Positions 17,007 through 23,020 of a stretch of DNA of 64,000 nucleotides are shown in pieces. The first letter of the stretch is position 1. Every line of letters begins with the position of its first letter. The notes beneath the pieces are model-generated. The model did no database searches, was not told the origin of the DNA, and saw nothing but the letters and a program-made list of their open reading frames with translations. The stretch lies in NCBI GenBank assembly GCA_003284275.1, contig QBVU01000004.1, positions 1-64,000 of the forward strand. The letters run 5' to 3'. Origin of the DNA: Pelagibacteraceae bacterium AG-313-A04 (GTDB lineage: Bacteria; Pseudomonadota; Alphaproteobacteria; Pelagibacterales; Pelagibacteraceae). The position numbers and the translations under genes are program-made.

Positions 17007-17987
17007 TCAACCGGTTAAATTTTCAAGTAAATTCAATATTTTTCTAAAACCACCTGGTAGTTCTGAGCTAAAATTCATCCTTTTTTTTGTTTTGGGATGA
17101 ACAAATCCAAGGGTTTTTGCATGCAACGCCTGACCAGACAATTTATTTAACTTAGTAAAAAATTCATTATTGATTTTTTTAAATTTTATATTTTTTTTAC
17201 CATATTGTTTATCCCCAAGCAGTGACGTACCTTTATATTTTAAATGGACTCTTATTTGGTGTGTTCTTCCTGTTTCTAGTTCACATTCAAGTAAACTTAT
17301 TTTAGGAATATCTTTAATATTGAAAACTTTTAAAGTTTTATAATTTGTAATAGCTTTTTTTCCATTTATATCACTTACTGTCATTAATTGACGGTTTTTT
17401 TTATCTCGTGAAATTAATGTGCTTATTTTTCCACTTAAAGGTCGTATTACCCCCCAAATTAAGCAAAGATATTTTCTGTTGATTGTGTGTTTACTAAACT
17501 GTTCACCTAAATTTGAATGCGCCATATTATTTTTTGCAACCACAAGTAATCCACTAGTTTCTTTATCTATCCTATGAACGATACCTGGTCTTGAAGATCC
17601 ATTAATAGTAGATAAATTTTTTTTGTATCTAAATATAAGAGCATTAACTAATGTGTTTTCGTAATTCCCTGCACCAGGATGCACTACCATCCCTTTTGAT
17701 TTATTAACGACTAAAATATCTTTATCTTCATAAACAATGTTTAACTTTATTTTTTTTGGCACAATGCTCTGTTCATCATTTTTAATAATTTTAATTACAA
17801 TTTGATCTTTAAATTTGACTTTGGCCGAAGGTGAAGTAAGTATTTTTTTATTTAATTTTACTTGATTATTCTCAATTAGTTTTTTTAAAAATGATCTTGT
17901 AAATTTATTAATATTTTCAGCTAAAAAAATATCTAATCTTTTCCCATTATTTTCAGTATCAACAGATAATTTAATTGTATTATTCAT
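17007..17987 (-). CDS. rluD: Large-subunit rRNA pseudouridine synthase, RluD type
   Basis: Converts uridines to pseudouridine in 23S rRNA helix 69. The 326-residue protein has an N-terminal S4 RNA-binding domain (about 15-75). The RluA-family catalytic domain follows, with the catalytic aspartate D141 in GIVHRIDKETSGLLV, then the ETGRTHQIRVHLK block and the LGDKQYG motif. Presence of the S4 domain favours RluD or RluC over RluA; position next to rpoH fits the alphaproteobacterial rluD-rpoH order. The exact uridine targets are inferred. Confidence 0.9.
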   Translation of the reverse strand: MNNTIKLSVDTENNGKRLDIFLAENINKFTRSFLKKLIENNQVKLNKKILTSPSAKVKFKDQIVIKIIKNDEQSIVPKKIKLNIVYEDKDILVVNKSKGMVVHPGAGNYENTLVNALIFRYKKNLSTINGSSRPGIVHRIDKETSGLLVVAKNNMAHSNLGEQFSKHTINRKYLCLIWGVIRPLSGKISTLISRDKKNRQLMTVSDINGKKAITNYKTLKVFNIKDIPKISLLECELETGRTHQIRVHLKYKGTSLLGDKQYGKKNIKFKKINNEFFTKLNKLSGQALHAKTLGFVHPKTKKRMNFSSELPGGFRKILNLLENLTG

Positions 17988-18011: not shown

Positions 18012-18089
18012 GCGCCGGTAGCTTCAACTGGATAGAGCGCCGGATTTCGGCTCCGGAGGTTATGGGTTCGACTCCTATCCGGCGCACCA
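18012..18089 (+). tRNA. tRNA-Arg (anticodon UCG)
   Basis: A complete cloverleaf. The acceptor stem is GCGCCGG (18012-18018) with CCGGCGC (18079-18085), followed by discriminator A and encoded CCA. The D arm begins GCTT and closes with GAGC. The anticodon stem CCGGA/TCCGG encloses TTTCGGC, giving anticodon TCG. The T arm is ATGGG-TTCGACT-CCTAT. It reads CGA codons, possibly CGN after modification. The accessory glycan genes begin three bases beyond its 3' end on the opposite strand. Confidence 0.97.
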
Positions 18090-18092
18090 TAA

Positions 18093-18896
18093 CTAAATAA
18101 TCCAATCAGAATATTTCTCTTTGTTATTAAATAAATATTCTGGATAACTATTATCTATACTAATTTTCCTCAATTTTGTGCCACGTTCAAAAATATCCTC
18201 ATTTTTCAAAATTTTTCTCTCAATTTCTTTTATATCGAGTTTTTCATTATTAAATTCACCGTGAGAGAAGGACCTTATTTTTTCTATAATTTGTTCAGGT
18301 GTTTGCAAAAATGAAAAATGCCATCCACCATTTATTATTTGTTGGTCTATCTTATCAATTCTCCAAAAAGGATATTTTTTAAATTTTAAATTTCTTAAAT
18401 CTTGCATTGATTTTAAATTTTTTACTTTCGTAATTTTTGATCCTATCCAATCATTTTCATTAAGATTTTGAAGGTTTAATTTATACATGAACATTTTTTG
18501 TGAAAAGGCTATATATTTCTTTTTGTTATTTATTTCAGGTAATTTAGTTAAATCTGGAATTTCATCCGAGTCAGATAAGATCAATAGGTCCTGACTTGAA
18601 GCATTTTTAAGCCCTTCAATTAGTGTGTTTCTTTGGTGCTGTTCAACGGGAGATTCACCTCCAGTATGGTTTATAAAATTAATTTCATCTTTATAATCAG
18701 CGACAATAAATTTTATCTTATTTTTAAATTTTGAAAATTTTTTTATATCAAAATTTATTCTTTTATTTTTACCTTGGTGGGTTTTTGTTGACTCCGAGAT
18801 CACAAAATAATCAACATATTTATTTAGAATATTCAATCGAAGATCCACTATATGATCTTCATTGAAGTACTGAAAACAATCGTAAATAGCCATCAA
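18093..18896 (-). CDS. Glycosyltransferase family 17-like protein
   Basis: Resembles the GT17 family (PF04724), named for eukaryotic beta-1,4-GlcNAc transferase III. Bacterial members are found in surface-glycan clusters. Visible marks are an N-terminal YDCFQYFNEDHIVDLRLNIL, VISESTKTHQGKNK near 33-46, the acidic motif ILSDSDEIPDL near 105-115, and GGWHFSFL near 190. It has 267 residues and no membrane segment or signal. The start overlaps the upstream FkbM gene by four bases; the stop lies three bases from tRNA-Arg. Substrate cannot be told. A second ATG three bases in is an equal start. Confidence 0.8.
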   Translation of the reverse strand: MMAIYDCFQYFNEDHIVDLRLNILNKYVDYFVISESTKTHQGKNKRINFDIKKFSKFKNKIKFIVADYKDEINFINHTGGESPVEQHQRNTLIEGLKNASSQDLLILSDSDEIPDLTKLPEINNKKKYIAFSQKMFMYKLNLQNLNENDWIGSKITKVKNLKSMQDLRNLKFKKYPFWRIDKIDQQIINGGWHFSFLQTPEQIIEKIRSFSHGEFNNEKLDIKEIERKILKNEDIFERGTKLRKISIDNSYPEYLFNNKEKYSDWII

Positions 18897-19828
18897 TTAA
18901 AATAGTTGTCTTCTAACTTTTCTAATTCTTTTAAATCTATTCGAAATTTATTCATTATAACCTGTAAAAGTTTTAATTGTCCAAATATTAACATTAAACT
19001 AATAAATTTATCCCTATTATTCATTATTAATCTTTTCCCAATTTCATTGTTAAAATTTGGGATAAAAATTAAATCTGCCTCAGCTGGAATTCTAGAGCTA
19101 TGACTTCCTATGCCTTTTAAATCTATTAAAGTATAATTTAATTCATAAAGAAAGTTATTTAACTTATGCCAACTAGGAACATTTTTATACATAGAGTAAA
19201 AATGAGTTTCCACTTTGATTAAAAGTGGTCGATAATCACCTATACCTTTTAAAATTTCTAACTCTGCTCCTTGAGTATCAATTTTTAGATAATCCAATTT
19301 ATTTACTTTTAATTTAATTAATTGATTTGTGAGAGTATCACAATCAATTTCTATAGTTCGAGTTATTTTATAATTATCGTATTCTTCTTTTTTTAAATTA
19401 TGTAAATCGAAAAATTCTTCACTGGGTTTGTACATAGACGAACTGCCTAGTCTATTTTCCAGAATATATAATTTTTTCTTTTCTTCTTTACTCCATAAAC
19501 CTTTATTTATTGTAAATTTTTTATTTTCAAATTTTTCAGCCTCAGATTTAATTGGTTCAACCAATATATCCTCAAAAAAACGATTATATTTAGAAGGAAA
19601 AAAATTATCTGAATTAAAACCGCCTTGCGCTCCAACGTCCAAAGCTACAATTTTTTCATTTTTTAATAAGCTGAAAATTAAATTTGTGAAGTTATACCGA
19701 TCATTGCTTTTATAACTTTTGTCGTTTAAATAATTAATAACTCTTCTATTTAATTTAAATTTTATAAATATCTTAAAGATAATAGGTAGAATTAACTTAA
19801 TTAAGCTTTTTGAAATTTTATTAGACAT
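18893..19828 (-). CDS. FkbM-family SAM-dependent methyltransferase
   Basis: FkbM proteins O-methylate sugars or other small molecules. The 311-residue protein has a basic N-terminal segment. The nucleotide-binding motif ALDVGAQGGFNSD is near 68-80, the acidic post-I motif VEPIKSEAEKFE follows, and the FkbM landmarks LDYLKIDTQGAELEILKG and KVETHFYSMYK are near 173-215. Coupled by a four-base overlap to the GT17-like gene, it probably methylates the sugar that gene adds. The methylated product is inferred, not seen. Confidence 0.85.
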   Translation of the reverse strand: MSNKISKSLIKLILPIIFKIFIKFKLNRRVINYLNDKSYKSNDRYNFTNLIFSLLKNEKIVALDVGAQGGFNSDNFFPSKYNRFFEDILVEPIKSEAEKFENKKFTINKGLWSKEEKKKLYILENRLGSSSMYKPSEEFFDLHNLKKEEYDNYKITRTIEIDCDTLTNQLIKLKVNKLDYLKIDTQGAELEILKGIGDYRPLLIKVETHFYSMYKNVPSWHKLNNFLYELNYTLIDLKGIGSHSSRIPAEADLIFIPNFNNEIGKRLIMNNRDKFISLMLIFGQLKLLQVIMNKFRIDLKELEKLEDNYFN

Positions 19829-19839
19829 AAGTTAAATAT

Positions 19840-20547
19840 TTACTTTTTTGTAAAAGTAGTAAGACCAATTTTTTTCCCATCGATCACACATGACGAACAA
19901 TGCAGTCTTGTTCTATCAAAAACTAACATTGAACCCAGCTCCCATTCATAAACTAGATCAATTTCTAAGCCAGCCAAATTTTCGATTTTTTCATGTTTTA
20001 AATATTTTTTATGGTCATCTTTGTTGAAAGGTTTTTTATTGAACATTTCTATATGTTCTGATGATCTAAAATTTTGACCATAATTTAGATTTTTGATTTT
20101 AAGCTCATTTTCATCAATAGTGAAATTCGTAGAGTTACCATAAAATTTATTTTTAAAAATAACTGTACTGCCTCTTGACGTAAGAGGTATAAGAGTTTGC
20201 TTAAATATAATCTCATTAACATTAAATCCCGCATCAACATGTAACCCAATAGGATTATAACTTTCTTGAAATAGTCCTAAAATATCCTCATTTTTCTCAT
20301 CCTTAAGGTTGTCCATTTTAAAATCACCAATTTCATTTTTGACTTTTTCATAAAATAAATTTTCCAATTCCTTGCTATAATTTTTAAGCCACCTTTTTTT
20401 AATAACATTTTGTTTCTTATTATGAACGGTAATGGGTAGATCTTTATAAAGGTTGAAGAATTTTTCAATTTCACTTTTATCAAACAAGTTTTTTATTACT
20501 TTAGCAGGACTTTCTAGTTTTTTAATTTTATCAATATTTTTATGCAT
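19840..20547 (-). CDS. Putative 2-oxoglutarate/Fe(II) oxygenase-like protein
   Basis: I do not recognise a named gene. The 235-residue protein has an H-x-D motif (H103, D105 in GLHVDAG) and a distal histidine H216 in FDRTRLHCSS. That is the iron-triad spacing of 2OG-Fe(II) dioxygenases on a double-stranded beta-helix. The segment SMLVFDRTRLHCSS is the kind of strand that precedes the distal His in such enzymes. There is no signal peptide or membrane segment. It lies between the ABC permease (4-base gap) and the FkbM gene (11-base gap), so a role in hydroxylating or tailoring the same glycan is plausible. Enzyme class is inferred from motifs only. Confidence 0.6.
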   Translation of the reverse strand: MHKNIDKIKKLESPAKVIKNLFDKSEIEKFFNLYKDLPITVHNKKQNVIKKRWLKNYSKELENLFYEKVKNEIGDFKMDNLKDEKNEDILGLFQESYNPIGLHVDAGFNVNEIIFKQTLIPLTSRGSTVIFKNKFYGNSTNFTIDENELKIKNLNYGQNFRSSEHIEMFNKKPFNKDDHKKYLKHEKIENLAGLEIDLVYEWELGSMLVFDRTRLHCSSCVIDGKKIGLTTFTKK

Positions 20548-20550
20548 ATC

Positions 20551-21342
20551 TTATTCACCCATATTTATTAAAGTTCCTCTATTTTTAGCTCCTTCATAGG
20601 ATAGGTAAAATATAACTATCCCAAAAATAAAATATATTAAAGATATAATTATTGCTTTAAATATTTGATAATAATTTAAGATATCATGAATTAAAATATT
20701 TCGCATCTCTTCAAAAATATGCACCAACGGAAGTAATTTTGCAATAATTCGAAGCCACTCTGGAAGTATATCTATAGGGTAGTAAATGCATCCTAGTGGT
20801 GCAAGAAAAAATAGACTTGCCCATGCAATATTTTCAAAAGAAGGACCAAATCTTATAAGACCTGATGTTACTAAAAGTCCCAACGTAACACCAAAAATAT
20901 AAAGAGTGATTAATAAAAGAATAAGAGGAATTCCAATTTTAAATATTGAAACTCCAAAAAGAGGTATCGCCAATAAAGCTGCAGGGATTAAACCGATTAA
21001 AGTCCTGAATATTGCGGTAATAGTTAATGCTGTAATTATTTCACTTATTTTTATTGGAGCAATAAATAAGTTAGTGAAATTTCTACTCCAAATTTCCTCT
21101 AGAAACATCATGTTATAACTTATACTTGATCTAAATAGAAAGTCATACAAGATCGCTGCGCTCAAAATTATGCCAACTGTGTTTTCAAAGTATGATGAAT
21201 TTAAGGTAAAAAATTTTGAAATAAAACCCCAAAGAAAAATTTGAATAGTTGGCCAATAAATTAAATCTAAAATTCTTGGGAAAGAACCTTTAATTAAGTA
21301 AACGTGTCTCAAGCTTAGTGCAAATATCTTATTAAAGTTCAT
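20551..21342 (-). CDS. ABC-2 type transporter permease
   Basis: A 263-residue inner-membrane protein with about six hydrophobic segments. It includes the ABC-2 family loop EEIWSRNFTNLFIAPIKISE, and the C-terminal block LAPLGCIYYPIDILPEWLR followed by LPLVHIFEEMR, as in DrrB/NodJ/Wzm-type export permeases. It overlaps the ATPase gene by 11 bases, so the two form one exporter. The size suits either a drug/lipid exporter or a polysaccharide exporter. The following glycan-type genes favour export of a saccharide or glycolipid, but substrate is unknown. Confidence 0.88.
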   Translation of the reverse strand: MNFNKIFALSLRHVYLIKGSFPRILDLIYWPTIQIFLWGFISKFFTLNSSYFENTVGIILSAAILYDFLFRSSISYNMMFLEEIWSRNFTNLFIAPIKISEIITALTITAIFRTLIGLIPAALLAIPLFGVSIFKIGIPLILLLITLYIFGVTLGLLVTSGLIRFGPSFENIAWASLFFLAPLGCIYYPIDILPEWLRIIAKLLPLVHIFEEMRNILIHDILNYYQIFKAIIISLIYFIFGIVIFYLSYEGAKNRGTLINMGE

Positions 21343-22063
21343 TTTTACTCCTAGCTATTTTCAAAAAAGTTTCTTCTAGATTTTCTCTTCCATGTTTTTT
21401 TATTAACTGATCACAAGTTCCACTGTCTACAATTTCACCATGTTTCATCATGATAATTTTATCGCACAACCTCTCAACTTCTTTCATATTGTGAGATGCC
21501 AACAAAATAGTTAGTTCATTATTTTTTTTATATTTTTCAATATATTGTCTTACAAAATCACCAACGTCCGGGTCAAGACTTGCAGTAGGTTCATCTAAAA
21601 ATAATAGCTTTGGTTTATTAATAAGCGATTTTGCTAGAGCTACTCGGTTTTTCTGGCCAGATGAGAGTTCACCAGTTTTTTTATATAAAAAATTTTGTAT
21701 ATTTAAATCCTCTACCATTTCATTCACTCTTTCTTTAATTTTAGTTACTCCATATAATCTAGCGTAAACCTCAAGATTTTGTTTTACCGTGAGTTTTTTT
21801 GGTAACTCTATGTACGGTGAGGCAAAGTTCATCAAACTTAACAACTGAATTCTATTTTTTGGCTCAAAATAAATATTATCAATATAAATTTTGCCACTTG
21901 ATGGCGTGATAAGTCCCAACATCATGCCGATTGAGGTTGTTTTACCACATCCATTTGGACCTAGTAATCCTAAAGTGGTATTTTTTTCAATTTCAAAGCT
22001 AATACTATTTACAGCAATTGTTGATTTAAATTTTTTAATAAGTTTTTCTACTTTTAATTTCAT
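21332..22063 (-). CDS. ABC transporter ATP-binding protein
   Basis: The 243-residue nucleotide-binding subunit has Walker A GPNGCGKTTS near 35-44, the Q-loop region NFASPYIELP, the signature LSSGQKNRVALAKSL, Walker B KLLFLDEPTASLDPD, and the switch histidine in LLASHNMKEVERL. It is a CcmA/DrrA-type exporter ATPase. It lacks the C-terminal carbohydrate-binding domain of long Wzt proteins, so recognition of a capped glycan through Wzt is unlikely. It starts one base before the sua5 stop and pairs with the permease downstream. Confidence 0.93.
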   Translation of the reverse strand: MKLKVEKLIKKFKSTIAVNSISFEIEKNTTLGLLGPNGCGKTTSIGMMLGLITPSSGKIYIDNIYFEPKNRIQLLSLMNFASPYIELPKKLTVKQNLEVYARLYGVTKIKERVNEMVEDLNIQNFLYKKTGELSSGQKNRVALAKSLINKPKLLFLDEPTASLDPDVGDFVRQYIEKYKKNNELTILLASHNMKEVERLCDKIIMMKHGEIVDSGTCDQLIKKHGRENLEETFLKIARSKNEL

Positions 22064-23020
22064 TTAAAATTTTGAAGCTCTTTTTATCCTATCATTAATT
22101 GCAATGCCAGCACCGTAATGAGGTATTTTGTGTATTTGAATTTTTTTGTAGCCTTTTTTTTTAATAGTTCTTAAAACCTTATACAAATTTGAAGCTGCTA
22201 GATTTAAGTTATTTTTTTTATTTAGACTGAAAAAATTTTTCTTATATTTATATTTATTGCCAATATATATAAAAGCACTAGTTCCATCATGTTTTTTTTG
22301 ATTTATTAAAATTGGTATCCCAGGCGAATAATGCTTAGCCATCATGCCTGGTGATAAAATTTTTCTCTTCCTGTAATTTTTATTAAATTTAATTTTAAGG
22401 GTTCTTTCAATTTTTTTTTCATCAATTACTCCTGGCCTCAAAATTTTTGGATTTGAGGTCAAATCTAACACAGTTGACTCAATCCCTATTTTACATTTAC
22501 CTCCATCTACTATAATTTTTAATTTTTTATTAAATTCCTCAAATACATCTAAAGAATTGACAGGACTTACATTTGTTGATTTGTTTGCACTTGGCATAGC
22601 TAACGGGAATTTGATTTTTTTTAAAATTGATCTAACAATTTTATTTTTTGGAAATCTTATAGCAATTGTTTTTAGATTAGCACACGCAAGTTTACTAATC
22701 TTGGAACTATTTTTTCTTTTTAAAACAAATGTTATTGGTCCTGGACAAAAATGTTTATATAATTTTTTAACATGTTTGTTAATTTTAACATCTTTTTCTA
22801 CGTCTTTTATATTATGATAGTGTATAATCAATGGATTAATTTTAGGCCTTCCTTTTAGTCGAAATATTTTTTTTACCGCCTTATCTGAATAGGCATTACC
22901 CCCAAGTCCATAAACTGTTTCTGTGGGTAGCCCTGCAACACTGCCTTTTTTTAAAGTTTTAATTGTTTTATTTAGAATTTTTTTGTTAAAAGTAAAAATA
23001 TTTGAATAGCTATTTTTCAT
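22064..23020 (-). CDS. sua5: Threonylcarbamoyl-AMP synthase (Sua5 type)
   Basis: Makes threonylcarbamoyl-AMP for the t6A modification at position 37 of tRNAs decoding ANN codons. The 318-residue protein has the YrdC domain (about 15-200: GLPTETVYGLGGNAY, KGRPKINPLIIH, CPGPITFVLKR, PSANKSTNVSP). It also has the C-terminal Sua5 domain after the linker SPGMMAKHYSPGIP (about 225-238), which distinguishes it from short YrdC (~190 residues). It is the first gene of the minus-strand run into the exporter and glycan genes and diverges from xseB with a 20-base gap. Confidence 0.93.
   Translation of the reverse strand: MKNSYSNIFTFNKKILNKTIKTLKKGSVAGLPTETVYGLGGNAYSDKAVKKIFRLKGRPKINPLIIHYHNIKDVEKDVKINKHVKKLYKHFCPGPITFVLKRKNSSKISKLACANLKTIAIRFPKNKIVRSILKKIKFPLAMPSANKSTNVSPVNSLDVFEEFNKKLKIIVDGGKCKIGIESTVLDLTSNPKILRPGVIDEKKIERTLKIKFNKNYRKRKILSPGMMAKHYSPGIPILINQKKHDGTSAFIYIGNKYKYKKNFFSLNKKNNLNLAASNLYKVLRTIKKKGYKKIQIHKIPHYGAGIAINDRIKRASKF

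Follow-up and report, generated by a model that had tools for sequence, protein, structure and literature searches.

A short cassette of glycan-tailoring genes in the SAR11 bacterium Pelagibacteraceae bacterium AG-313-A04, lying between an exporter permease and a tRNA-Arg(TCG) gene, is likely to be a replacement-type flexible island: one to a few genes fill the space between the permease stop codon and the tRNA, and the block is exchanged between species, probably through recombination in the flanks. SAR11 bacteria rank among the ocean's most abundant organisms and have a very reduced genome. The cassette was found in a 64,000-bp stretch of DNA (GenBank assembly GCA_003284275.1, contig QBVU01000004.1, positions 1 to 64,000 of the forward strand; hereafter the window), whose genus is one within the SAR11 family Pelagibacteraceae. 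Using sua5 (left) and rluD (right) as interval markers, we located both genes in 169 genomes of the same genus and took the 112 intervals in which both flanks, or nearly so, lay on one contig; we also compared 40 exporter loci from nine further Pelagibacteraceae genera. The genomes are mostly single-cell or metagenome assemblies of about 50 to 98% completeness. The intervals come from the genomes whose assembly spans the site from flank to flank, and each species is represented by one genome, which makes all comparisons between species. The locus in the window is made up as follows.

17007 to 17987, minus strand: rluD-like pseudouridine synthase (PF00849), conserved flank and marker
18012 to 18089, plus strand: tRNA-Arg(TCG), right-hand anchor, with its 3' CCA end toward the cassette (ARAGORN; Rfam RF00005); convergent and at the same place in 112/112 same-genus intervals
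18093 to 18893, minus strand (open reading frame from TTG 18896): GT17-family glycosyltransferase, class A allele (PF04724, E = 3.8e-18; SDxDEIP motif); 112/112 intervals
18893 to 19828, minus strand: FkbM-family methyltransferase, accessory (PF05050, E = 6e-13); 37/112 intervals, in each case with GT17 class A
19840 to 20547, minus strand: 2-oxoglutarate (2OG)-Fe(II) oxygenase-fold protein of 235 amino acids, class A allele (AlphaFold model and PDB folds); 91/112 intervals
20551 to 21342, minus strand: ABC-2 permease, left-hand anchor and family core (PF01061); 53/57 good family genomes
21332 to 22063, minus strand: ABC transporter ATPase of DrrA-like type, flank (PF00005, E = 1e-29; no Wzt C-terminal domain); 110/112 intervals
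22064 to 23020, minus strand: sua5/tsaC, conserved flank and marker (PF01300, PF03481)

The content of this site varies within the genus while its borders stay in place. All 112 intervals hold GT17 and tRNA-Arg, and nearly all hold the permease (111) and the ATPase (110), but the oxygenase is present in 91 and FkbM in 37. The most frequent layouts are oxygenase-GT17 (35 intervals), oxygenase-FkbM-GT17 (33, the layout of the window), and GT17 alone (20). The cassette comprises one to four genes, rarely more, in an interval of about 2.4 to 6 kb. Named oxygenase carriers include HIMB058, MED-G40, SAG-MED28, and a metagenome-assembled genome of subclade IIa.A; SAG-MED28 has been assigned to subclade IIa.B (PMC7542561). 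In roughly 20 of the 112 intervals, additional genes lie between GT17 and tRNA-Arg; they encode a second 2OG oxygenase family (PF13640), a GDSL/SGNH protein, a GalE-like epimerase, a flavin adenine dinucleotide (FAD) oxidoreductase, a Gfo/Idh oxidoreductase, a radical-SAM/B12 protein, and a 270-amino-acid protein, and most of these are plausible sugar enzymes. Two different species (L142 and L152) carry a closely similar 560-amino-acid radical SAM/B12 gene, antisense, between GT17 and tRNA-Arg. At three loci (L087, L123, and L145), the GDSL/SGNH reading frame extends at its 3' end into tRNA-Arg on the antisense strand, and the two genes overlap. At a fourth (L404, G114:C8:12041-12874), the copy of the second 2OG oxygenase gene next to tRNA-Arg contains four in-frame stops and is decaying.

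A clean empty site was found elsewhere in the family. In the largest genus (g6), 16/16 genomes have the order sua5-ATPase-permease-tRNA-rluD with no cassette, and the permease stop lies 0 to 5 bp from the tRNA in the genomes whose sequence was inspected. Genera g9 and g10 have GT17 at the same place, in g9 sometimes together with the oxygenase or FkbM, and in several other genera the site holds unrelated genes or the region is rearranged. The exporter, the tRNA, and the flanks are conserved across the family. Of the 57 good family genomes, 53 have the exporter, which abuts the tRNA in cassette-free ones; it is therefore core in the family, and the cassette is what has been added beside it. An earlier note on this DNA had proposed an accessory, strain-variable island of surface-sugar genes. 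Conserved flanks and variable content, which would support an island, were observed across the 112 intervals and the 40 loci of other genera, and the pattern that would have indicated a core function, with the same genes in the same order in essentially all SAR11 genomes, was looked for and not found, which supports the island reading. The variable part is narrower than proposed, in that the oxygenase, FkbM, and the extra genes come and go but GT17 is core in the genus. Counting the exporter as part of the accessory set was not borne out by its distribution, and the suggestion that the product is made for export rests on adjacency.

The alleles in the cassette are linked to one another and hardly to their flanks. 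GT17 falls into two deep classes that are about 45% identical. All 76 loci with GT17 class A have oxygenase class A, and the 36 loci with GT17 class B have either oxygenase class B (15 loci) or none (21 loci), while FkbM occurs only with GT17 class A (37/37). Pairwise identities are correlated among the cassette genes (rho of 0.52 to 0.86; GT17-FkbM, 0.86; GT17-oxygenase, 0.66) and among the flanks (0.28 to 0.76), but the correlation between GT17 and the flanks is 0.07 to 0.14. A tree of the flanks shows vertical signal together with frequent switching, with 14 changes of GT17 class and 22 changes of FkbM state (shuffled means, 31 and 31). A single class B clade is rejected by the flank data (35 rows; log-likelihood difference, 926; approximately unbiased [AU] test P value, 1.7e-21), which indicates exchange of the cassette as one block. 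The clearest pair consists of the near-sisters SAG-MED28 (L090) and L096, in which the flanks are 84 to 89% identical, the oxygenases are 53% and the GT17 proteins 46% identical, and FkbM is present in one only. The two GT17 classes never occur together in any of the 112 intervals, and this speaks against differential loss.

Several points weigh against the reading as an exchangeable glycan-tailoring island. The constancy of GT17 (112/112) makes part of the set core in the genus, and the flank genes recombine too (the RluD-ABCa correlation is 0.28). With one genome per species, exchange is seen between species only. In addition, the exporter occurs without the cassette and so need not export the cassette product.

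In the window, sua5, the ATPase, the permease, the oxygenase, FkbM, and GT17 form a packed run on the minus strand that ends at the convergent tRNA-Arg(TCG); rluD and rpoH follow past the tRNA on the same strand as the cassette. Exactly 3 bases separate the CCA end of the tRNA from the GT17 stop codon. The permease and the oxygenase are 3 bp apart and the oxygenase and FkbM 11 bp apart, and the FkbM stop codon TGA (18895-18893) shares one base with the GT17 ATG (18893-18891); the GT17 start is probably this ATG at 18893 rather than the TTG at 18896. The position and spacing of three coupled genes next to a tRNA and after an ABC-2 exporter, as described in the earlier note, are thus correct, and the locus is not a chance arrangement, because the same genes occupy the same place in more than 100 genomes. 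The G+C content of the cassette is about 25%, versus 30 to 35% for genes further out. Promoter-like sites are fewer than in shuffled sequence, and the four terminator-like sites found are weak, with none at the end of the cassette. The cassette would be read from the sua5-exporter operon.

The identities of the three enzymes, which had been proposed from the letters of the DNA, are supported by Pfam for two of them and by an AlphaFold model and PDB folds for the oxygenase. The GT17 protein scores 66.1 bits against PF04724 (curated cutoff, 26), and its SDxDEIP motif is invariant across 24 aligned rows; it thus resembles the GT17 glycosyltransferases of that family, from which it differs in being bacterial. 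FkbM scores 49.7 bits against PF05050 (curated cutoff, 22.7), falls slightly below the cutoff of TIGR01444 (37.0 versus 37.7), and is the sole PF05050 match in the window genome. The oxygenase has no match in Pfam, NCBIfam, or PHROGs, and a PDB sequence search with the GT17 and oxygenase profiles gave nothing convincing. Its AlphaFold model (predicted local distance difference test score, 86.5; predicted template modeling [TM] score, 0.85) has the double-stranded beta-helix fold in a Foldseek comparison with the PDB, where the top folds are AndA (E = 4e-6; probability of 1.00), WelO5, HygX, EctD, and prolyl 4-hydroxylase (TM scores of about 0.5). The HxD...H triad is conserved across 90 orthologues (H103, 89/90; D105, 90/90; H216, 90/90). 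Fold and triad, which it shares with these 2OG-Fe(II) oxygenases despite matching none of their sequence families, support the assignment of the modeled 235-amino-acid protein to the 2OG-Fe(II) oxygenase fold. An invariant Lys226 lies ten residues past the distal His, where many 2OG oxygenases have a 2OG-binding Arg, and may take over its role. In the sole orthologue with an altered triad (L131, genome G010), Gln replaces the first metal-binding His of HxD, and the protein may be inactive. Elsewhere in the phylum, the oxygenase was found in 0 of 397 other genomes. A contig filed as Verrucomicrobia (L282, PNEW01000107) encodes an oxygenase 80% identical to that of the window and is probably mis-binned SAR11.

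As proposed here, GT17 would transfer a sugar onto a glycan or glycolipid of the envelope, which the oxygenase would then hydroxylate and FkbM O-methylate, giving a changed surface epitope that, as the earlier note suggested, might help the cell to evade phage. A second GT17 gene in the window genome (L362:6684-7565, G000:C2) is divergent from a gene for an 850-amino-acid, fusion-like protein resembling an epimerase and a C-methyltransferase, adjoins lon-clpX-clpP, and has a WecA/MraY-like gene in its region; with the names of the last gene and the 850-amino-acid protein read from sequence, these neighbors fit a glycan role for the GT17 family. The ATPase (243 amino acids) matches ABC_tran, has no Wzt_C match, and is closest among NCBIfam models to DrrA, making it less likely that the pump is an ABC-dependent O-antigen exporter (Wzm/Wzt); some Wzt proteins have no C-terminal carbohydrate-binding domain. 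The exporter may or may not carry the cassette product, given that it occurs in cassette-free genomes as well and that no such domain is seen in its ATPase.

It is unlikely that the enzymes instead tailor a small molecule, such as a secondary metabolite or lipid, for export by the adjacent DrrAB-like pump. The resemblance of the ATPase to DrrA without a polysaccharide-exporter domain would fit such a role, as would the presence of the natural-product enzymes AndA, WelO5, and HygX among the fold neighbors of the oxygenase; however, no scaffold-making gene lies nearby, much of the family has the exporter without the cassette, and the GT17, GalE-like, and Gfo/Idh genes suggest sugars.

The way in which the cassette moves was considered next to a site-specific mobile element that enters at the tRNA 3' end by means of an integrase, perhaps as a prophage or tycheposon remnant. 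The position precisely at the CCA end and the related modules at tRNA-Gly, tRNA-Met, and tRNA-Ser speak for this origin, which is nevertheless improbable: the gene clusters of the 112 intervals include no integrase-like or tyrosine recombinase reading frame, the window has no second copy of the tRNA end, the three genes have no close viral relatives, and most modules at tRNA-Ser face the 5' side of the tRNA. A search for an att-type tRNA duplication in the window matched only tRNA-Arg itself. A phage origin was likewise rejected, with viral GT17 relatives at 36% identity or less, partial matches only for FkbM, and, for the oxygenase, four distant relatives in IMG/VR (26 to 29% identity) and none in INPHARED. 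Among these viral-contig relatives of the oxygenase are L318:3007-3789, which lies beside radical-SAM-like genes, and L316:1771-2586, neither with a Pfam or PHROGs family match above chance. With no integrase observed and a single copy of the tRNA end, we favor homologous recombination in the conserved flanks, by which the cassette would be swapped as a block; the same mechanism has been proposed for replacement islands (PMC4033161). The least probable alternative, in which the exporter operon is core and vertically inherited and some lineages merely lost its downstream sugar genes without any horizontal exchange, draws on the frequency of GT17 and the oxygenase and on labels less scattered on the flank tree than shuffled ones, but it conflicts with the many alternations of two deep GT17 classes on that tree, the AU rejection of a class B clade, the lack of intervals with both classes, which loss from a double ancestor predicts, and the clean empty site in g6.

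Related modules lie beside other tRNAs. At L364:4973-7400 (G166), a tRNA-Gly(gcc) site holds an FkbM-like gene and a class B GT17 together with a PF13640-like 2OG oxygenase, and L365:4874-6600 (G014) has the same oxygenase type, tRNA-Gly(gcc), and a class B GT17 without the FkbM-like gene; these two loci represent a sister module located next to another tRNA. Genes of the second 2OG oxygenase family are within 200 bp of a tRNA in 14/25 loci (Arg-TCG, Gly-GCC, and Met-CAT), as are GT17 genes of other genera in 6/30 (Ser-GGA, Met-CAT, and Phe-GAA) and other FkbM genes of the same genus in 0/30, counts from phylogenetically nonindependent loci that provide a lead and not proof. We raise only tentatively the possibility that SAR11 genomes carry dispersed, integrase-free, sugar-decorating modules of one to a few genes (GT17, 2OG oxygenase, and FkbM) directly beside several tRNAs (Arg-TCG, Gly-GCC, Met-CAT, and Ser-GGA), each exchanged on its own. 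If so, they would let the surface be modified combinatorially in a genome that is too small to hold many large islands.

Swapping of glycan-modifying genes at the species level in SAR11 would point to a surface feature under changing selection. One interval suffices to read the alleles, and the locus offers a simple marker for asking whether surface sugars track phage sensitivity. Whole O-chain swaps have been considered too slow for a phage arms race, in which single-gene or cassette swaps might matter (PMC11898729); the tRNA-Arg locus would be a candidate for such swaps. A literature search of partial coverage, including PMC11898729, found no mention of this locus. Tycheposons and the tRNA-bounded islands of Prochlorococcus and Methylophilaceae (PMC10872708) similarly place cargo beside tRNA genes in streamlined aquatic genomes, but the cassette has no tyrosine recombinase or repeated tRNA end. 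The O-chain biosynthetic cluster of Pelagibacterales (PMC11898729) belongs to the same order and also consists of glycan genes with high between-genome diversity; the cassette lies at tRNA-Arg and is a second, much smaller variable glycan locus of the group. The kind of element, a replacement island for surface glycans, is already known, and the O-chain cluster is its large Pelagibacterales example. The cassette resembles the replacement flexible genomic islands described in aquatic bacteria (PMC4033161) in that it sits at the same position between conserved flanks, has exchangeable contents of similar function, carries putative surface-sugar genes, and has no integrase. It differs from them in being a few genes and not a whole pathway, in having variants that share homologous GT17 and oxygenase alleles, and in its borders, a tRNA on one side and a core exporter on the other.
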